Source of the DNA: Haloterrigena gelatinilytica | GTDB taxonomy: Archaea; Halobacteriota; Halobacteria; Halobacteriales; Natrialbaceae | Length of the DNA stretch: 64,000 nt | Reading direction: 5' to 3' | Assembly: GCF_013342145.1 (NCBI RefSeq) | Contig: NZ_JABUQZ010000001.1 | Span: 2,542,001-2,606,000, forward strand | Shown here: piece by piece, positions 23,343-32,720 of the stretch | How the letters are laid out: the number at the start of each line of letters is the position of its first letter | How positions within the stretch are numbered: the first letter of the stretch is position 1 | Program-made: the position numbers and the translations under genes | Notes under the pieces: model-generated | What the model was told of the DNA's origin: nothing | Seen by the model: only the letters and a program-made list of their open reading frames with translations | The model's database searches: none

Positions 23343-24986
23343 ATGGCACACACTGGTGAGGGTGATTTCGATCGATTCCCTCGTCGATCGGTGCTCGCCG
23401 GGCTGGGGGGGTTCGGCGTCGCCGGCGCGGCCGGCTGTATCAGCACCAACCCCGGGGTCGAACTCGAGAGCGACGCGGAAGAACTCATCTTCGAGGGCTT
23501 TCAGGAGGCGGGCGTCGAACCGCCCGTCGAGACGACGATTTACTCGAACGCCGAGAACGAGGGACGAAAGCGGTGGGCGCAGTTGGTCCAACGCGAACTG
23601 GACGACACCGATCTGTTCGACGTCTCGTTCGAGACCCTCGAGTGGACCTCCTACATCGATCTGGTCAACAACATGGCCGCCAACGAGGAGAACGCGCTCG
23701 TCTGTCTGGGATTTATCGGCGGCTGGGACCCGCACCAATACGTCTATCCGGGCTTTCACTCCGACAGTTTCACTCCGACCGGCCTCAACATCAACCACTA
23801 CGAGAACGAGCGGGTCGACGAGCTCATCGACGAGGGCGTCGCGACCGTCGACGAGGACGATCGCGTCGCGATCTACGAGGAGTTGCAGGAACTCCTCGTC
23901 GAGGAATCGCCGCTGTCGTTCGTTCGCGCGCCCGAGGAGATCGTCACCTACCGCGCCGACGCGGTCGACGGGTTCCGGACGTATCCGGTCCCCGGCGACG
24001 AGTACAAGTCGATCTACGCGCCGACGCTCGGCGTCTACACGGAACTCGCCGCCGACGAGACCGAACTCGTCGGCGACGTGGGGACGAAGATCGACAGCTA
24101 CGATCCGGTCCGAGCGGCCGACGACGTCTCGCACATGGCCACGGGCCTGCTCTACGAACAGCTCCTCGAGATCGACTTCGACGGGAGCGTGCGACCGCTG
24201 CTCGCGACCGACTGGCACCGGATCGACGAACGGACCTGGCGGTTCGAGTTGCGAGAGGGCGTCCGGTTCCACACCGGCGAACCGTTTACCGCCGCGGACG
24301 TCGAAGCGACCCTCGAGCGCTACGAGGGATCGCCCAGCGAACGGGACGTGTACACCTGGTACGAGAGCGCGGACGTCCTCGGCGACCACGAGATCGAGAT
24401 CACGCTCCGGCGGCCGTACGGGCCACTGGAAATAGCGGTCGCACAGGTGCCGATCCTCCCGAAAGCCGTCGCGGACGGCACGCACGACATCTCCGAGCGA
24501 CCGGTCGGAACGGGTCCGTACGCGTTCGAGAAGCACGAGCCCGCCCGGCTCTGGCGGCTGGTCGCCAACGAGGACCACTGGCACGACGGGAGCAACGGCG
24601 TCCCCGAAACGCCGCCGATCGAGACCGTAACGATGCGGATCATCACGGAAACGTCGGCCCGCCGCGGCGCCCTCGAGACGGGCGATATCCACCTGACGAC
24701 GGGCCTCCCGAACGAGAGCCTCGACGCGTTCGAGGACGACGACGGGTTCGTCGTCGACCGGACGACCGGCGCGGCCGTCGACTTCCTGGGCTATCCGAGC
24801 TACCGCGAGCCCTTCTCCAATCCGAAGGTCCGGCGCGGGATCGGGCGGCTCATCCCGCGCCAGCGGATCATCGAGGACGTGTTCAACGGCGCCGGCACTG
24901 CGGCCTACACGCCGATCTCCCCGACCCACGAGACGTTCGTCGATCCGGAGTTCGAAGCGCGCATCGTCGACGAGTACTTCAGCTAA
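23343..24986 (+). CDS. Circularly permuted family-5 solute-binding lipoprotein of the Dpp/Opp importer
   Basis: 547 residues. A Tat signal (FPRRSVLAG) and lipobox with Cys32 (VAGAAGC) predict a lipid-anchored exported protein. Residues 43-215 correspond to the C-terminal part of DppA-type proteins: SDAEELIFEGFQEAGVE (usually YDPEKAKxLLxEAG), the GxxGGWDPHQYV region, and YENERVDELIDEG. Residues 233-547 then correspond to the usual N-terminal two-thirds: SYDPVRAADDVSHMATGLLY, LREGVRFHTGEPFTAADVE, RPVGTGPYAF and FSNPKVRRGIGRLI, ending just before where YDPEKA would normally follow. The order of the two parts is swapped relative to the family, with new termini at the same hinge. Genes for the two permeases and two ATPases follow directly, so it is the receptor for a peptide-type importer; the ligand is unknown. 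Confidence 0.88.
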   Translation: MAHTGEGDFDRFPRRSVLAGLGGFGVAGAAGCISTNPGVELESDAEELIFEGFQEAGVEPPVETTIYSNAENEGRKRWAQLVQRELDDTDLFDVSFETLEWTSYIDLVNNMAANEENALVCLGFIGGWDPHQYVYPGFHSDSFTPTGLNINHYENERVDELIDEGVATVDEDDRVAIYEELQELLVEESPLSFVRAPEEIVTYRADAVDGFRTYPVPGDEYKSIYAPTLGVYTELAADETELVGDVGTKIDSYDPVRAADDVSHMATGLLYEQLLEIDFDGSVRPLLATDWHRIDERTWRFELREGVRFHTGEPFTAADVEATLERYEGSPSERDVYTWYESADVLGDHEIEITLRRPYGPLEIAVAQVPILPKAVADGTHDISERPVGTGPYAFEKHEPARLWRLVANEDHWHDGSNGVPETPPIETVTMRIITETSARRGALETGDIHLTTGLPNESLDAFEDDDGFVVDRTTGAAVDFLGYPSYREPFSNPKVRRGIGRLIPRQRIIEDVFNGAGTAAYTPISPTHETFVDPEFEARIVDEYFS

Positions 24987-25010: not shown

Positions 25011-25964
25011 ATGACGCTGGCCATCTACGTCCGAAAGCGGGTGCTGGCTTCGATCCCGGTACTGCTGGGTGTGACGGCCCTGACGTTTTCGCTCCTCCAC
25101 CTGACGCCGGGGGATCCGGTCGACGCCGTGCTCGGCTTTCGGGAGGTCGACCCGGCCGTCAGGGAGTCGCTGAAAGCCGAGTACAACCTCGACCGCCCGG
25201 TCTGGGAACAGTATCTGCTCTGGCTGCGCGACGCGCTCGTCCTCGAGTTCGGCCGGTCGCCGATCACGGGTCGCGACGTCGGGGCGACGATCGCCGACCG
25301 GCTGCCCTACACGCTCGTGCTCGGGGGCGCGGCGTGGCTCTGTTCGCTCCTGATCGGGATTCCGGCGGGGGTCGTCGCGGCCGTCAAGCGGGGCGAACCC
25401 GCCGACGAGGTCAGCCGCATCGCGGCCCTCGCCGGTATCGCGACGCCGAACTTCTGGCTGGGGCTGGTCCTCCTGTTCGTCTTCAGCGTCCACCTCGGCT
25501 GGTTCCGGGTCATTCCGCCCGACGCGCCGCTTTTGAGCCCCGCGACGCTGCGATTTCTGGTCCTGCCGACCATCACGCTCGGGACGGCCTCGGCCGCGCT
25601 CGTCGCGCGCCTGCTGCGCTCGTCGATGCTCCGGGAACTGAACGCGTCGTACGTCCGGACCGCCCGCGCGAAGGGGCTGCGCGAGCGAACGGTGATCTGC
25701 AAACACGTCCTTCGCAACTCCCTGACCGCCGTCGTCACCGTCGCCGGCCTCCAGTTGACCCTCCTCGTCGACGGCGCGGTCGTCGTCGAGCAGGTGTTCT
25801 CCTGGCCCGGCATAGGGCGGCTCCTGGTCGGCGCGATCGGACAGCGCGACCTCCCGACCGTCCAGGCGACGGTGCTGGTCGTCGCCGTCTCGGTCGTCCT
25901 CGCGAACCTGCTCGTCGATATCGTCTACGCCGTCCTCGACCCGCGGATCAGACACGAACGGTGA
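25011..25964 (+). CDS. ABC transporter permease, DppB/OppB type
   Basis: 317 residues with six membrane spans. The N-terminal VRKRVLASIPVLLGVTALTFSLLHLTPGDP is diagnostic of DppB-type permeases, and the EAA loop region reads YVRTARAKGLRERTVICKHVLRNSL (about residues 215-239). The C-terminal VDGAVVVEQVFSWPGIGRLL is also typical. It forms the membrane channel with the next gene product. It starts 25 bases after the binding-protein stop, and 11 bases separate it from the next gene. Confidence 0.92.
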   Translation: MTLAIYVRKRVLASIPVLLGVTALTFSLLHLTPGDPVDAVLGFREVDPAVRESLKAEYNLDRPVWEQYLLWLRDALVLEFGRSPITGRDVGATIADRLPYTLVLGGAAWLCSLLIGIPAGVVAAVKRGEPADEVSRIAALAGIATPNFWLGLVLLFVFSVHLGWFRVIPPDAPLLSPATLRFLVLPTITLGTASAALVARLLRSSMLRELNASYVRTARAKGLRERTVICKHVLRNSLTAVVTVAGLQLTLLVDGAVVVEQVFSWPGIGRLLVGAIGQRDLPTVQATVLVVAVSVVLANLLVDIVYAVLDPRIRHER

Positions 25965-25974
25965 CACACGACCC

Positions 25975-27030
25975 ATGACACGAGAGACACCGGATCGATC
26001 GACGACCGACCGCGGTCGGATTCGCATCGAGGGGTTCGACGAGGCGGTCGCGGCCGACCGCGACGACGACGCCGTCGATCCCTGGGCCGACGGACGGGCG
26101 AACGACGCCGAGACCCCGTCTCGAGGCCGTTTCGAGGACGCCTGGCGCCGCTTTCGATCGAACCGAACGGCCGTGCTCGGCCTCGCGATCATCGCGGCGC
26201 TCTCGGTCGTCGCGGTCTTCGCCCGCCCGATCGCGTTCTCGACGGCCGAGTACACGATCACGGTCCAGCCGTTCTCGCTGGCGCCGTACGATCCCGCCGA
26301 GATGTACGTCGGGCCGCCCAACGCCGGACCGTCGGCGGCCCACCCCTTCGGAACCGACTGGGCGGGCCGGGACCTGTTCTCCCGGGTCCTCGTCGGCGGG
26401 CGGTTCAGCCTCAGCATCGGGGTCGTCGCCGTCGCGCTCGCGCTGGTCGTCGGGATTCCGCTGGGCGCGATCGCCGGCTACTTCGGCGGCTGGGTCGACG
26501 AACTCGTCATGCGGGTCGTCGACACCCTCTACGCGTTCCCGTTTCTGGTGCTCGCGATCGCCGTCGTGGCGGTCGTCGGCCGCGGCTACTGGAACATCGT
26601 CGCCGCGCTCGCACTGACCGGCTGGATCGGCTACGCCCGCCTGCTGCGCGGGGAGATCCTCTCGGTGAAAGAACGCGAGTACGTTACCGCCGCGAGGGCC
26701 CTCGGGACGCCGGACCGGACCATCATCGCCAGACACGTCGTTCCGAACGCCGTCGCCCCCGTCGTCGTCCAGGCGACGCTGAACGTCGGGACGGTCGTCC
26801 TGACGGCCGCGGCGCTGGGCTTTCTGGGCCTCGGCCTCGAGCCGAGCACCGCCGAGTGGGGATCGATGCTCGCGAACGGCCGCGATTCGATCGCCGCCGG
26901 CCACTGGCACCGCACCGTCTTCCCCGGGCTGGCGATCTTCCTGTTCGTGATGGCGATCAACCTCGTCGGCGACGGGATCAACGACGCGCTCGATCCGCAG
27001 GGCGAGACCGCCGAACGGAGGCGTCGGTAG
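25975..27030 (+). CDS. ABC transporter permease, DppC/OppC type
   Basis: 351 residues. A hydrophilic acidic N-terminal tail of about 55 residues precedes the OppC core with RFRSNRTAVLGLAIIAALSV, AHPFGTDWAGRDLFSRVL, and the EAA loop YVTAARALGTPDRTIIARHVVPNAVAP. GFLGLGLEPSTAEWGSML near the C terminus is a family hallmark. It pairs with the upstream DppB-type permease. The stop is followed one base later by the GTG of the first ATPase, implying coupling. Confidence 0.92.
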   Translation: MTRETPDRSTTDRGRIRIEGFDEAVAADRDDDAVDPWADGRANDAETPSRGRFEDAWRRFRSNRTAVLGLAIIAALSVVAVFARPIAFSTAEYTITVQPFSLAPYDPAEMYVGPPNAGPSAAHPFGTDWAGRDLFSRVLVGGRFSLSIGVVAVALALVVGIPLGAIAGYFGGWVDELVMRVVDTLYAFPFLVLAIAVVAVVGRGYWNIVAALALTGWIGYARLLRGEILSVKEREYVTAARALGTPDRTIIARHVVPNAVAPVVVQATLNVGTVVLTAAALGFLGLGLEPSTAEWGSMLANGRDSIAAGHWHRTVFPGLAIFLFVMAINLVGDGINDALDPQGETAERRRR

Positions 27031-27031
27031 C

Positions 27032-28092
27032 GTGGCGCTGCTCGAAGTCGAGGACCTCGTCGTCCAGTTCTACACCGAGGACGGCGTGGTCCGCGCGGTC
27101 GACGGGATCAGTTACGAGATCGAGCGCGGCGAGCGCCTCGCGCTCGTCGGCGAGAGCGGCGCCGGCAAGACCGTCACCAGCCTCGCCCTGCTGGGGCTGA
27201 TCGAGGACCCCGGCGAGATCGTCGGCGGCGAGATCCGCTTTCGGGGACGGAACATCTTGGAGTGCTCCGATTCGGAGCGGCGATCGCTCCGCGGCAACGA
27301 GATCGCGATGGTGTTCCAGGACCCCGAGACGGCGCTCAACCCCGTCTACTCCGTCGGCGAACAGATCGCCGAGGCGATCCGCGCCCACGGGGACGTCACC
27401 GACGAGCAGGCCCGCCGACGGACGGTCGAACTCTTAGAGCGCGTCGGCATTCCCGACGCCGAGCGCCGCTACGCGGACTACCCCCACGAGTTCTCCGGCG
27501 GCCAGCAACAGCGGATCGTCATCGCGATGGCGCTGTCCTGCGAGCCCGACCTGCTGATCTGCGACGAGCCCACCACGGCGCTGGACGTCACGGTCGAAGC
27601 CCAGATCCTCGAGCTGCTCGAGGAACTCGCCGCGGAGTTCGAGACGGCGATCCAGTTCGTCTCCCACGACCTCGGCGTCGTCGCCGAACGCTGCGATCGC
27701 GTGCTCGTCGTCTACGCCGGGCAGGTCGTCGAGCGCGCGTCCGTCGACGACCTGTACTACGATCCCAAACACCCCACACGGTCGGGCTGATGGCGTCGAT
27801 CCCCCGCCTCGGCGACGACCGCGATCGGCTGCCGACGATCCCCGGCACCGCGCCCGACCTCGTCGATCCCCCGACGGGCTGTCGGTTCCACCCGCGCTGT
27901 CCGTACGCCGAGTCCTGCTGTGCGACCCGCGAGCCGTCGCTCGTCGACGCGGAGACCGGGACGGCCGCGACGCCGCTCGAGGCCGCCCCCGATTCCCACC
28001 TCGCCGCCTGCCACGAGTACACCGGCGCCCTCGAGGACGGACTGGACTACGACGTCGTCGTCAGGGGCGAGGACGGAGGTGAGCCCGAATGA
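27032..28092 (+). CDS. ABC transporter ATP-binding protein, DppD/OppD type, with 1-base frameshift near its C-terminal third
   Basis: From GTG 27032 the first frame gives Walker A GESGAGKTVTS (about residues 39-49), Q-loop MVFQDPETALNPVYSVGEQI, signature FSGGQQQRI and Walker B LLICDEPTTALDVT, then terminates at 27790 as DPKHPTRSG. The expected HPYTVGLMASIP continues in another frame to 28092 with PTGCRFHPRCPYAESCC, the oligopeptide/dipeptide C-terminal Cys domain. One base is missing at about 27775, where CACCCCACACGG would be expected to read CACCCCTACACGG. With that correction the protein has about 353 residues, normal for DppD. The truncated form still has all ATPase motifs. Sequencing error or real lesion cannot be told apart here. 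Confidence 0.85.
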
Positions 28093-29399
28093 GCGACGAC
28101 CCGCTGCTCCGCGTCGAGGGCCTCGAGAAGGAGTACGCGACGGCCGACGGCCTCCTCGACCGCCTGTTCGGCTCCGGGCGCACGGTCACGGCCGTCGACG
28201 GCGTCGACCTCGAGGTCCGCGAGGGGGAGACGCTCGGACTGGTCGGCGAGAGCGGCTGCGGCAAGAGTTCGCTGGCCCGCTCGCTGCTCCGACTCACCGA
28301 GCCGACCGCCGGTACGGTCTCCTATCGCGGTACCGACCTGACCGCCTGTTCCCGATCCGAACTCCGAGCGGTGCGGGCGAACGTCCAGTACGTCCCGCAG
28401 AATCCCGGTGCGAGCCTGAACCCGCGGCTGACCGTCCGCGACATCGTCGGCGAACCCCTCGAGGTCCACGACGTCGTCCCGCCGTCGGAGCGCGACGCCC
28501 GCGTCCGGGACTTACTCGAGACCGTCGGGCTCGCACCGGGCCACGCCGAGCGGTACCCCCACGAGTTCTCCGGCGGCCAGCAACAGCGGATCGCCATCGC
28601 CCGCGCGCTGGCCGTCGAGCCCGAGTTCGTCGTCTTGGACGAACCGGTGTCGTCGCTGGACGTCTCGGTCCAGGCCCAGATACTCAACCTGCTGGCCGAT
28701 CTGCAGGACGAATTCGGGCTCGCCTACCTCTTCATCGCCCACGACCTCTCGGTCGTCGCCCACGTCGCGGACCGCGTCGCCGTGATGTACCTCGGGAAGA
28801 TCGTCGACGTCGGCCCGACCGAGGCGGTCTTCGACGACCCGTCGCACCCCTACACGGCGGCGCTGCGCTCGGCGATCCCCGAACCCGACCCGCGCTGGGA
28901 GGGCGACCGAATCGTCCTCGAGGGCACCGTCCCCTCCCCCGACGACTGTCCGTCTGGCTGTCGGTTCCACACGCGCTGTCCGAGAGTGCTCTCGCCCGCC
29001 GAGTACGACCTCGAGTCCGAGACCGTCCGGGCGATCCGTCATCTACGGAAACGGCTCGCCGACGGCGAGGACGGCCTCGAGTCGGTACTCGCCACTTCCG
29101 GGGCCGACGATGACGTTCCCGCGGCGATCCGCGACGAATTCGGTCTCCCGGCCGAACTCGAGGACGACGACGCCGAACGCGTCCTCGCGGACGCCCTCGA
29201 GGCCGTCGCGGCCGGCGAGATCGACGACGGGCGGGCGCGACTCGCGTCCGCCTTCGCGACGCCGTGCGAGACCGATCGACCGCGACTCGAGCCGGTCGGC
29301 GACGACGGCGACGACCGTTCGATCGCCTGTCACCGATTCGACGACGCGTACGCGGACCACCTACCGGATGACTCCGAGACGAGGACGCCCGAACGATGA
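28089..29399 (+). CDS. ABC transporter ATP-binding protein, DppF/OppF type, with long C-terminal extension
   Basis: 436 residues. Walker A GESGCGKSSLARSLL, Q-loop YVPQNPGASLNPRLTVRDIVGEP, signature FSGGQQQRIAIARAL, Walker B FVVLDEPVSSLDVS and the C-terminal Cys motif PSGCRFHTRCPRVL identify the second ATPase of the importer. About 120 residues beyond the usual end (from about 315) are acidic and unlike canonical DppF. Similar tails occur in haloarchaeal homologues, but their role is unknown. The ATG overlaps the end of the preceding gene, and its own stop overlaps the next start (ATGA). Confidence 0.9.
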   Translation: MSDDPLLRVEGLEKEYATADGLLDRLFGSGRTVTAVDGVDLEVREGETLGLVGESGCGKSSLARSLLRLTEPTAGTVSYRGTDLTACSRSELRAVRANVQYVPQNPGASLNPRLTVRDIVGEPLEVHDVVPPSERDARVRDLLETVGLAPGHAERYPHEFSGGQQQRIAIARALAVEPEFVVLDEPVSSLDVSVQAQILNLLADLQDEFGLAYLFIAHDLSVVAHVADRVAVMYLGKIVDVGPTEAVFDDPSHPYTAALRSAIPEPDPRWEGDRIVLEGTVPSPDDCPSGCRFHTRCPRVLSPAEYDLESETVRAIRHLRKRLADGEDGLESVLATSGADDDVPAAIRDEFGLPAELEDDDAERVLADALEAVAAGEIDDGRARLASAFATPCETDRPRLEPVGDDGDDRSIACHRFDDAYADHLPDDSETRTPER

Positions 29400-29926
29400 C
29401 GCGAAAACGAGTCGACGACTCGAACGCGCTCGAGCGGGACGCGGAGGATCCGTTCGCGCCCGCGGCGAAGCCGGACGGAACCGGTCGGACGATCGACTGG
29501 GACGCGTTCAGCCACGCGTTCGTGCCCGTCGCGCTCCGCACGTGGGCCGTCGCGGTCTCGATCGCGACCGACCGCGACGTCTACGAGCGCGGCGACCCCG
29601 TCGCCGTTCGCGTCGAGTTCCGAAACCGGCTCCCGTTTCCGATCCGGCTGCGGACCGACTCCCCGGAGCGGTGGGTCTGGGCCGTCGACGGAGCGACGGC
29701 CGCCTCGCGGCTCGAGCGCCCGGTTCCCGACCGGCCCGACGTCTTTTCCTTCGCCCGCGGCGAGCGCAAGCGGTTCAGTCGCGAGTGGTCCCAGCGCATC
29801 CGGGTCGCCGAGGACGAGTGGGACCCCGTCGATCCCGGACGCTACAAGCTCACGGCGCGGGTCAACCGAGAAGACGCGGCCGACCGCGGCCTCGTCGCCG
29901 CGACCGAGATCGAAATCCGGGAGTGA
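29396..29926 (+). CDS. BsuPI-like beta-sandwich protein, last gene of the importer operon
   Basis: 176 residues, no signal peptide, no cysteine. Residues 55-175 (ATDRDVYERGDPVAVRVEFR, RWVWAVDGATA, FARGERKRFSREWSQRI, DPVDPGRYKLTARV) follow the pattern of the BsuPI/intracellular proteinase inhibitor-like immunoglobulin fold (YxxGEPVxVxxxVxN, then W and PGxY). The start overlaps the ATPase stop, placing it in the importer operon. The similarity is weak, and a protease-inhibitor function should not be assumed. Confidence 0.55.
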   Translation: MTRKRVDDSNALERDAEDPFAPAAKPDGTGRTIDWDAFSHAFVPVALRTWAVAVSIATDRDVYERGDPVAVRVEFRNRLPFPIRLRTDSPERWVWAVDGATAASRLERPVPDRPDVFSFARGERKRFSREWSQRIRVAEDEWDPVDPGRYKLTARVNREDAADRGLVAATEIEIRE

Positions 29927-29976: not shown

Positions 29977-30945
29977 TTACGACCGGCGACCCGTCGACGG
30001 CTCGTCGCTCGAGGGGCCCTCGACGTCGGCCCCGTCGGCCTCGCCGTACTCGTCGTCTTCGGCGGGCGAGGTGGGATCGGCCGGCGCGCTCGTTCCGGCG
30101 ATCCGCCGAATCCGGGCCGCGTACTCGTCGACTTCGATGCCGAAGTCCTCCGCGAGCGACCAGCGGCCGACGAGACGGTCGGCGGCGTATACCGTCCCGA
30201 CCGCGAGCGCGATGCCCGCGACAACGTCGATCGCCCAGTGGATCCCCAGGTACATCGTCGACACCGCGATACTCGCCGCCAGCGGCGCCGCGACGGCGAA
30301 CCAGATCGGGTACTCGTCTCTGGTTCGGTAGGCGAAGATCGCGATCGTCGCCGACAGCGAGGTGTGCAGCGACGGGAAAACGTTGGTGTTGTGGTTGACC
30401 TCCCGCGTCAGGTACTGATACTGCGGGCGGAAATCGTACAGCACGGTCTCGATCGCGGTGGGCATGATGTTTCGCGGCCCGTAGGCGATCACCAAGAGGT
30501 AGAGGAACAGTCCGATCAGGTAGTTCAGCGCGTACGCGGACAGCAGCTCCCGGAGCGGGCGCGTATCCGACAGCGCGAAGTACGCGATCACGGGGAAGAC
30601 CAGAATGAAGACGTAGCCGTAGATGTAGACGAACGAAAAGTACTGGGTCACCGGCGGGCTGGCGAACTGCTGAAACCAGATGATCGCCTCTCCTTCGATG
30701 GCGTAAAACGTCGGCGTCAGGTTCCAGTCGATCGCCCAGGAGATATCGGGCAGGCGCTGTCGAGTGAATCGGTTCGCGAGTAACACGACGAGCACCACGC
30801 CCGCGACGGGCGCGGCCTCTCGCATTCGGTCCCGCCACTCGCGGCGGGTCGCCCGCAACCGGCGTCGGCCGATACAGACGGGGACGAACCCGACGAGCAG
30901 GACGACGATGATGACCGTTACCTGCGTCAATAGCTCGGCGAGCAT
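29977..30945 (-). CDS. PAP2/inositolphosphotransferase-like integral membrane protein
   Basis: 322 residues with about six to seven membrane spans. Phosphatase motifs of the PAP2 superfamily are present: NVFPSLHTSLSATI (motif 2, His in SLH) and YLGIHWAIDVVAGI (motif 3, HxxxD). Motif 1 is reduced, as in the Aur1/Ipt1-like branch. The enzyme probably acts on membrane lipid phosphates or transfers a head group at the outer face. The C terminus is a hydrophilic acidic tail of about 60 residues. Its ATG overlaps the stop of the second binding protein by one base, so the two are cotranscribed. Confidence 0.75.
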   Translation of the reverse strand: MLAELLTQVTVIIVVLLVGFVPVCIGRRRLRATRREWRDRMREAAPVAGVVLVVLLANRFTRQRLPDISWAIDWNLTPTFYAIEGEAIIWFQQFASPPVTQYFSFVYIYGYVFILVFPVIAYFALSDTRPLRELLSAYALNYLIGLFLYLLVIAYGPRNIMPTAIETVLYDFRPQYQYLTREVNHNTNVFPSLHTSLSATIAIFAYRTRDEYPIWFAVAAPLAASIAVSTMYLGIHWAIDVVAGIALAVGTVYAADRLVGRWSLAEDFGIEVDEYAARIRRIAGTSAPADPTSPAEDDEYGEADGADVEGPSSDEPSTGRRS

Positions 30946-32720
30946 CAGGATCTCACGATGTATTCTCCGTCTTCGTCGTACTGGAAGCCGTGTCGTTCGA
31001 ATTCGCGCTTCGCCCGTTCCACGTCCAGTTCTCCCGTATCCCCACTGTTCGTTTCGTCACGGAAAAAGGGCGCGTATGGGGCCGCACCGTCCCACTCGAG
31101 GTCGTCCGGAACCCACTCCTCCGTAACCGGCGTGACGCTCGGGCTCGCCTGCCCGTTGAAGACGTCCGCCACGAGCGACTCCCTGTCGATCAATCGCGCG
31201 ACGTTTCGCCGGAAGTGGAGGTTGCTGAACGGCGAGTTCCTGACATTGAACCCGATGTGGTAGAACGTCCACGATTCGGACTCGACGAGTTCGAGGCCGT
31301 CCGGTACGTTTCCGACCGTCTCCGAGCCGAGAATGGAGGCCGTCACGTCGGCGTTCCCCGCCTCGAGCTGGTCGACGGCCGCGCTACTGTTCGGTTCGAC
31401 GTGGAAGGCGAGCTCGTCGACGCGGGGCTCCGGCAGGTCGACGTAGCCGCGGCGGGTGAAGTGGTCGTCGAAGCGCTCGAAACGGAGGTGCGAGCGCGGC
31501 TCCTGCTCGGTGAGCGCGAACGGCCCGCTGCCGATCGGCGGAATCTCTTCGGTGGTCACGAGATCCCACGTCCCCTGGATGGGCTCTGTGCCGTTCTCGA
31601 GCCGGTCTTCGACCGCCGTCTTCCAGATGTGTTTCGGGAGGATCGGGACGGTAAAGGCCAGTTTGCCGACCTCGTCGCTCGTCCCGAATCGCATCCGAAC
31701 GGTTCGGTCGTCGACGGCCGTCACCGATTTGACGGCGTCGCCCAGCCCGCGGTATCTCGGCGCCGGCGACTGTCCGTCGCGGTCGCCGAGCGAGGTGTCG
31801 TCCAGAAGGTCGTACGTAAACTTGACGTCGTCGGCGGTCACCGGCTCGCCGTCGTGGAACAGGCAGTTCGATCGGAGCGTGATCGTCGCGACCGACTCGT
31901 CCCACTCCCAGGACTCGGCGAGCCACGGCCGGAGCTCGCCGTCGTCTCGGGTCGCCACCGAGTCGTAGAGCAGATCGACGAACGGACCCCGATAGCGGTA
32001 CGCCGCGGCGAGGGGGTTGATGTTTCTCGAGGGGCTCGAGTCGGTGATCACCGCGTTCAGGACGACCTCGTCCTCGAAGTCGTCCTCGTCGGGCTCGAGA
32101 CCGAGATAGCCGAGTCGGGTCCCGAGGTGGTGATCGTTCCAGCCGTCGAACCGATCCGTTCTGACGAGCCGCCGCTCGTCGGGAACGCAGATCGGCACGA
32201 TCGGATGCGTTTGCGCCAATCGATCGAGCGCTTCGCCGACGACTTCCTTCCGCTCCGACCCCGTCGTCGAGCGCTGTCGCTCGAGTAACTCGTCGAGCTC
32301 GGTGTCCACGAACCCGTAGGGGTTTTGCCAGCCGGCTTCGGGGGCGAACTTCGAGTGGAACGTCTCGTACAGAAAGTCGGGGTCGTATCCGCTCGGATGG
32401 CGACTGATGTAACAATCGAAGTCGTGCTCGAGCAAGACCGTCTGCAGCAACTCGGCGTCGGCGCGGGGCTCGATCCGGACGTTGATCCCGACCGCCTTGA
32501 GGTTCTCCTCGAGTTGGCGGGCGATCTGGATCGCCTGTCGGTCGTTGTCCGTGGGCAGCGTTAGGATGGTTATCGAGAGTTGATCGCTGGCGGCGCCGGT
32601 GATGAGTCGCTGAATGCGGTCCATACAGCCGGCTACGGAACCGGCGATTCCAGTACTTCCAGCGGCGAGCACGGCACGTCTACTTACTCGGTCGTCAGAC
32701 CGATCCGACGGGAGGGTCAT
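30945..32720 (-). CDS. Second circularly permuted family-5 solute-binding lipoprotein
   Basis: 591 residues. Tat motif SRRAVLAAG and lipobox Cys32 (GSVAGC). Residues 47-200 match the usual C-terminal part of DppA-like proteins (LSITILTLPTDNDRQ, QLEENLKAVGINVRIE, SGYDPDFLYETFHSKF, VDTELDELLERQR). Residues 219-591 match the usual N-terminal part (LNAVITDSSPSRNINPL, LAESWEWDESVATITLRSNC, FHDGEPVTADDVKFTYDL, IGSGPFALTEQEPRSHLRF, FSNLHFRRNVARLIDR). It ends with LDVERAKREFERHGFQYDEDG, the DPEKAKxLLxEAGYxxDxDG hinge that usually precedes the first segment. The break therefore lies about 25 residues after the one in the partner protein at 23343. It faces the importer operon across the BsuPI-like and PAP2 genes. 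Ligand unknown. Confidence 0.87.
   Translation of the reverse strand: MTLPSDRSDDRVSRRAVLAAGSTGIAGSVAGCMDRIQRLITGAASDQLSITILTLPTDNDRQAIQIARQLEENLKAVGINVRIEPRADAELLQTVLLEHDFDCYISRHPSGYDPDFLYETFHSKFAPEAGWQNPYGFVDTELDELLERQRSTTGSERKEVVGEALDRLAQTHPIVPICVPDERRLVRTDRFDGWNDHHLGTRLGYLGLEPDEDDFEDEVVLNAVITDSSPSRNINPLAAAYRYRGPFVDLLYDSVATRDDGELRPWLAESWEWDESVATITLRSNCLFHDGEPVTADDVKFTYDLLDDTSLGDRDGQSPAPRYRGLGDAVKSVTAVDDRTVRMRFGTSDEVGKLAFTVPILPKHIWKTAVEDRLENGTEPIQGTWDLVTTEEIPPIGSGPFALTEQEPRSHLRFERFDDHFTRRGYVDLPEPRVDELAFHVEPNSSAAVDQLEAGNADVTASILGSETVGNVPDGLELVESESWTFYHIGFNVRNSPFSNLHFRRNVARLIDRESLVADVFNGQASPSVTPVTEEWVPDDLEWDGAAPYAPFFRDETNSGDTGELDVERAKREFERHGFQYDEDGEYIVRS

Follow-up and report, generated by a model that had tools for sequence, protein, structure and literature searches.

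The locus

The window analysed here is a stretch of 64,000 nucleotides from Haloterrigena gelatinilytica (Natrialbaceae; contig NZ_JABUQZ010000001.1, positions 2,542,001 to 2,606,000). It carries a gene, P0001, for a circularly permuted solute receptor of the SBP_bac_5 family, which is followed on the same strand by genes for two permeases, two ATPases and a small conserved protein (Table 1). Receptor, permeases and ATPases together constitute an importer operon of the Dpp/Opp/Nik type. A sequence-only reading of this DNA had described the operon as standard apart from its receptor. The permease-permease-ATPase-ATPase series is indeed present (25011-29399), but the reading frame of ATPase 1 is shifted near 27780, so that its oligo_HPY part is found in another frame. 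In four congeneric genomes and in Natronolimnohabitans, the same gene is contained in one frame. The frameshift may reflect a sequencing error or a genuine defect of the gene; in the latter case, the transporter encoded in the window may be impaired.

Table 1. Features of the P0001 operon and of the second permuted receptor gene in the window (aa, residues of P0001)
Feature	Position	Strand	Basis or remark
P0001, circularly permuted SBP_bac_5 receptor gene, 547 aa	23343..24986	+	Pfam, phmmer, orthologs, model
Signal region (aa 1-32) with Tat RR at 14-15 and a lipobox, AAGC, ending in C32	23343..23438	+	sequence
Short tether, aa 33-44, from the (predicted) lipid-anchored Cys to the first helix	23439..23474	+	first model helix from aa ~44
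Normal C-terminal part, here first, aa 45-235; starts at the EKAKxLLxEAG-type helix	23475..24047	+	
Junction of old C-terminus and old N-terminus, aa 236-239; about 5 residues (AADET)	24048..24059	+	
Normal N-terminal part, here last, aa 240-547; new C-terminus is the cut loop	24060..24983	+	
Permease 1 (BPD_transp_1; nearest NCBIfam Opp2B/NikB-type)	25011..25964	+	Pfam, NCBIfam
Permease 2 (BPD_transp_1 and OppC_N)	25975..27030	+	Pfam, NCBIfam
ATPase 1 (OppD-type)	27032..27790	+	C-terminal part in another frame, to 28092
ATPase 2 (OppF-type, ABC_tran and oligo_HPY)	28089..29399	+	Pfam, NCBIfam
Small conserved operon gene	29396..29926	+	no Pfam match above cut-off, no NCBIfam match
P0003, second circularly permuted SBP_bac_5 lipoprotein, 591 aa, class B	30945..32720	-	

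Order of the parts in P0001

P0001 matches the Pfam profile of its family, PF00496, with 209.4 bits against a cut-off of 32.4, in two stretches, of which the better one pairs residues 283-534 with positions 2-256 of the 368 in the profile. A collinear match over the whole protein is absent; the order is swapped, which is the defining trait of the variant. A phmmer search against the PDB returned the same picture: residues 268-527 align with 73-331 of 5u4o and residues 55-201 with 356-496, again in swapped order, and 1uqw and 1xoc match the same two stretches, equally reversed. No NCBIfam receptor model reaches its cut-off on P0001. When compared with a canonical-order ortholog (L042), residues 241-545 correspond to 39-343 at 50% identity and residues 45-235 to 351-540 at 41%. 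Moreover, a doubled copy of the mature P0001 sequence aligns with this ortholog in a single alignment of 512 residues (46% identity, 8 gap columns, E 1e-151), and it is such collinear alignment of a doubled copy with a canonical protein that defines a circular permutant. The swapped order is thus far beyond chance and the homology of both parts beyond doubt, and P0001 belongs to SBP_bac_5, that is, to the cluster C receptors of the Dpp/Opp/Nik type.

These comparisons, including the separate alignment of the two parts, which were matched to the C- and N-terminal family parts respectively, bear out the swap that had been proposed from the letters of the sequence. The limits of the segments had to be corrected, from 43-215 to about 45-235 and from 233-547 to 240-546. 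At the join, the old C-terminus (..YAPTLGVYTEL) runs through AADET into the old N-terminus (ELVGDVG..), while the loop at which the chain is cut reads GYDPE in canonical orthologs and lies just ahead of the EKAKxLLxEAG-type helix. The Tat and lipobox signal that was said to precede the swapped parts is also in place: R14, R15 and C32 are present and, together with G31, invariant in 13 orthologs of the same class (class A, see below). With its twin arginine and lipobox cysteine, P0001 is predicted to be exported as a Tat-dependent archaeal lipoprotein.

Fold model and lobes

AlphaFold2 yielded a pLDDT of 31 when given the P0001 sequence alone. With an alignment of 80 unaltered sequences, consisting of permuted relatives and of canonical relatives entered as separate halves, it produced one compact fold with a mean pLDDT of 95.3 and a pTM of 0.92, and not a normal protein with an extra domain of 200 residues, in agreement with what the sequence-only reading expected of a permutant. 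Residues 207-516 of the model superpose on residues 3-308 of GsiB (1uqw; Z 25.1, rmsd 2.2 Å over 298 residues), and likewise on DppA 1-328 and OppA 1-338. As the structure aligner is sequential, the first 200 residues of P0001 are not placed in the same superposition; judged by their homology, these roughly 200 residues are the C-terminal part of the solved structures. The two-lobed fold of the family is thereby accounted for in P0001, with 310 model residues superposing on DppA, OppA and GsiB and the other 200 assigned by sequence homology.

An unrelated N-terminal domain fused to a C-terminally truncated receptor, which the single best Pfam stretch seems to suggest at first, has practically no chance of being the correct description, since residues 45-235 match the C-terminal part of canonical orthologs at 41-45% identity as well as 5u4o, 1uqw and 1xoc, a homology by which fusion with a foreign domain and truncation are ruled out, and since the model forms one compact unit.

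Both termini of OppA are situated in domain I, which is lobe I, and roughly residues 271-486 make up domain III, which is lobe II. The cut in P0001 corresponds to OppA residue ~338, a position within domain III and hence in lobe II. Because the chain is joined in one lobe and cut in the other, neither hinge strand should be interrupted, and the opening and closing of the receptor should consequently be unchanged. The lipid anchor, on the other hand, would have moved from lobe I to lobe II.

Orthologs of either order

Among 391 haloarchaeal genomes scanned, 36 contain a receptor of class A, the class of P0001, in 35 of them as a single, full-length permuted open frame with 41-96% identity to P0001 and in one as a split gene. 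The hosts are nearly all members of the Natrialbaceae, the family of the window (for example Natrinema, Natrarchaeobius, Natribaculum and Natronolimnohabitans), and also include Natronomonas. The split receptor, from Natrinema versiforme (L067 4859-6593 / L182), occupies two overlapping frames and is possibly a pseudogene or the result of a sequencing error.

Orthologs in canonical order are found in other genera, in Haloferacaceae and other haloarchaea (Halolamina L184 and L185; L042-L052, with Halolamina among the close kin of L042), at 44-50% identity. They belong to the same family and sit in the same operon as P0001, but have their parts in normal order, with signal and anchor before the lobe I part. 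Their operons show the same gene order: permeases 1 and 2 (62-66% identity) are followed by the two ATPases and by the small gene, which is thus kept alongside receptors of either order. Being found in the same operon with an orthologous transporter, these canonical receptors indicate that one and the same transporter functions with permuted and canonical receptors alike. One further canonical-order ortholog (L060 5206-7025, genome G280) is spread over two overlapping frames.

All 36 class A loci that were inspected have permease 1 directly downstream of the receptor gene. In comparisons of the window with its relatives, dN/dS ranges from 0.20 to 0.44 in both modules, indicative of purifying selection, and many residues of the binding fold do not vary within class A. 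This selection and the conserved linkage in the operon argue that P0001 is probably a working receptor; as a member of cluster C, it would be expected to bind a peptide, nickel, a sugar or similar. The swapped order could in principle also stem from an assembly error or mark a decaying pseudogene, and the frameshift in the neighbouring ATPase 1 and the split frames in Natrinema versiforme might be cited in its favour. We regard this as very improbable given the open frame in 35 haloarchaeal genomes, the dN/dS values in both modules, the invariable position of permease 1 and the occurrence of the gene in named records from Natrinema, Natronomonas, Natrarchaeobius, Natribaculum, Natronolimnohabitans and others. 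For the family as a whole, open frames, selection and operon linkage exclude both an assembly error and a decaying pseudogene.

Spread and classes of permuted receptors

To classify chain order, we used a family profile in canonical order built from reassembled parts, against which permuted genes appear as two complementary domains and were resolved cleanly. As a control, the bacterial loci among the 80 loci kept by a scan of the whole collection were all canonical, indicating that the classification of order is unbiased. In the genome of Haloterrigena gelatinilytica, five of the nine receptor genes of the family are permuted and four canonical; across 15 haloarchaeal genomes, the count is 39 permuted genes out of 97. 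One of the five in the Haloterrigena gelatinilytica genome, P0003, is likewise located in the window, about 6 kb from P0001, and is cut some 15 positions later in the profile. No gene for an ABC permease was noted adjoining P0003, which is followed by a gene of the PAP2 family.

The permuted receptors fall into classes that differ in the position of the cut. It lies at profile position ~354 in class A, at ~370 in class B, which contains P0003 and many others, at ~387 in a subgroup made up of L107, L133 and L134, at ~367/373 in class D and at ~370 in class E (L009, L160). Class C, with L111 and L122 as members and L094 assigned to it by inspection, is cut at ~477, meaning that only the last ~57 residues were moved to the front, where they follow a long acidic linker; the respective loci are an open reading frame at 157-2652 in L111, 1355-2983 in L122 and 925-2655 in L094, and a close canonical relative is L118. 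Without exception, the normal chain is cut somewhere in its second half, and the lobe II loop that is cut in P0001 is the most frequent site.

Outside haloarchaea, we searched with the permuted profile at strict thresholds. Permuted receptors were obtained in 4 of 250 Thermoproteota (L252, L253, L254, L256, L257), in about 13 of 199 Bacillota (L270-L279) and in 2 of 198 Actinomycetota (L280-L282), the host assignment being less sure for those bacterial loci that come from metagenome bins; they also exist in non-haloarchaeal Halobacteriota (family f15). In 200 Pseudomonadota, the strict threshold returned canonical order only and no permuted receptor. Likewise, no PDB chain with permuted order was among the 60 best of a profile search, in which the best stretches all fell into the second module only.

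Number of origins

Trees were computed from the reassembled modules after removal of the breakpoint columns. In a tree of 82 rows, class C nests with the canonical receptors L118, L002 and L090, class D with L120, L205 and others, and class E with L131, L136, L139, L141 and L144, each with 100/100 support; class A is part of a 100/100 clade that it shares with its canonical operon orthologs and class D. AU tests rejected single clades of A and D (lnL difference 403, p 1.8e-44), of B and E (p 9.6e-51) and of C and B (p 8.6e-11), and were marginal for F and B (p 0.023). Class D as a single clade received a p of 0.025 and so possibly has two origins itself. In a tree of 64 rows that includes bacteria and Thermoproteota, the starred branches force nine changes of order, and the permuted f15 receptors L165 and L291 are sister to canonical L255 (100/100); these, and the Bacillota receptors L278, L275 and L277, seem to represent additional origins. 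Five separate permutations (A, B, C, D and E) are well supported as a minimum, and there were probably seven or more.

It is also conceivable that one ancient permutation was inherited by all permuted members, and that canonical receptors among them arose by later reversion. The number of changes on a tree does not distinguish gains from losses, and a single origin of class A is unrejected on the receptor tree (p 0.167) and marginally rejected on the tree of permease and ATPase sequences (p 0.034). We nevertheless consider a single ancient event unlikely. The breakpoints differ by class (profile ~354, ~370, ~387 and ~477), each of the classes A, C, D, E and F has canonical relatives of its own with which it nests at support values of 99-100, and the AU tests speak strongly against uniting A+D, B+E or C+B in one clade. 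Furthermore, reversion would itself require further permutations, and the 200 Pseudomonadota, at the strict threshold, have canonical order alone. Separate permutations remain our preferred reading for the family. Within the operon family of P0001, the permease and ATPase tree places permuted operons in three positions among canonical ones; the 11-row operon clade of the window, for instance, has canonical L042-L049 as its sister group (99/99). Such a scatter hints that receptor order switched repeatedly or reverted.

Proposed mechanism and possible selection

In the mechanism that we propose, P0001 would be exported through the Tat pathway, anchored by its lipid and, as a two-lobed 'Venus flytrap', hand over its ligand to the ABC importer whose genes lie downstream. 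Whereas a normal chain has its start and its end in lobe I, the permutant has the two fused by some five residues and is cut in the lobe II loop before the EKAKxLLxEAG-type helix. With this cut, mature P0001 begins with the second half of lobe II, and its lipid would be expected on this lobe and no longer on lobe I. The rearrangement likely proceeded by duplication, fusion and loss: a tandem duplication of the receptor gene inside the operon may have been followed by in-frame fusion of the two copies, after which the outer halves would have been lost and a signal peptide captured. Tandem receptor genes are present in several genomes (L201, L241, L110); no fused duplicate intermediate was seen among the loci examined. 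Overall, we are highly confident in this proposal, namely that P0001 is a genuine circular permutant of cluster C, in a family with recurrent permutations. The swapped order, the canonical orthologs in the same operon, several origins, the confident model of a single fold and purifying selection are shown by the analysis; the lobe that carries the anchor, the duplication route, a working receptor and the class of ligand are inferred.

A separate question is whether permuted receptors were favoured by selection. The swap may simply be neutral, in that the lobe I termini are close to each other, tandem duplicates are common and the rearranged protein works equally well, without any benefit from the relocated anchor; we would give this explanation an even chance. 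The tandem receptor genes and a junction that needs only about five residues are in keeping with it. So are the permuted forms that lack a lipobox: while haloarchaeal permuted receptors are typically lipoproteins, the Bacillota receptors L272 and L278 are devoid of the lipobox cysteine, and a move of the anchor can therefore not explain all cases. Against neutrality stands the contrast between 39 of 97 receptor genes in haloarchaea and the rarity of permuted forms in most bacteria sampled, thresholds and sampling being different in the two cases, which suggests that something about anchored archaeal receptors favours permutation. The most far-reaching form of the selective reading would be that cluster C receptors were permuted at least seven times, nearly always with a transfer of the anchor from lobe I to lobe II, because a turned-round receptor pays off in anchored archaeal importers, and that the order in the P0001 operon switched up to three times with the transporter unchanged. 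We put this forward tentatively and rate it as rather doubtful.

Relation to known systems

As a rule, a natural circular permutation is a single, old event that came to light by chance in a structure. The present case concerns one receptor family with at least five independent permutations, some of which have a canonical relative that occupies the same operon in a sister genus. Such pairs of permuted and canonical receptors in the same operon make the effect of chain order on export, lipid anchoring, folding and delivery accessible to testing. Standard domain annotation hides the swap, because PF00496 is satisfied by either order, and plasmid records name such genes only 'ABC transporter substrate-binding protein'. 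In functional work and biosensor design, assuming the normal order would assign termini and tags to the wrong lobe in about four in ten haloarchaeal receptors.

Our literature searches in open-licence full texts found no permuted family-5 receptor, in line with the sequence-only reading, which knew of no description of one. With DppA, OppA, NikA and GsiB (all PF00496), P0001 shares the family, the fold, as judged from the sequence of both parts and the model, and the type of operon; it departs from them in chain order and in its anchor, which is expected on lobe II. The closest case that came up, TpMglB-2 (Tp0684), is a permuted glucose receptor of cluster B, for which the designations 'Cluster Bc' and 'Type Ic' have been introduced (PMC4990184). 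In this protein, the first three strands of the N-lobe have been moved to the C-terminus, necessitating a fourth hinge crossing; it is lipid-anchored, binds its ligand and closes normally, and its authors proposed membrane tethering as a possible reason for the permutation (PMC4990184). P0001 resembles TpMglB-2 in being a natural circular permutant of a solute receptor of an ABC importer and in its lipid anchor, which for P0001 is predicted. Assignment of P0001 to Cluster Bc can be dismissed, as its Pfam and structure matches are to cluster C and its cut is a different one. Unlike TpMglB-2, it is cut in lobe II and joined in lobe I, no extra hinge crossing is expected, and the permuted receptors of its cluster have several origins; by analogy with Cluster Bc, they would be 'cluster Cc'.
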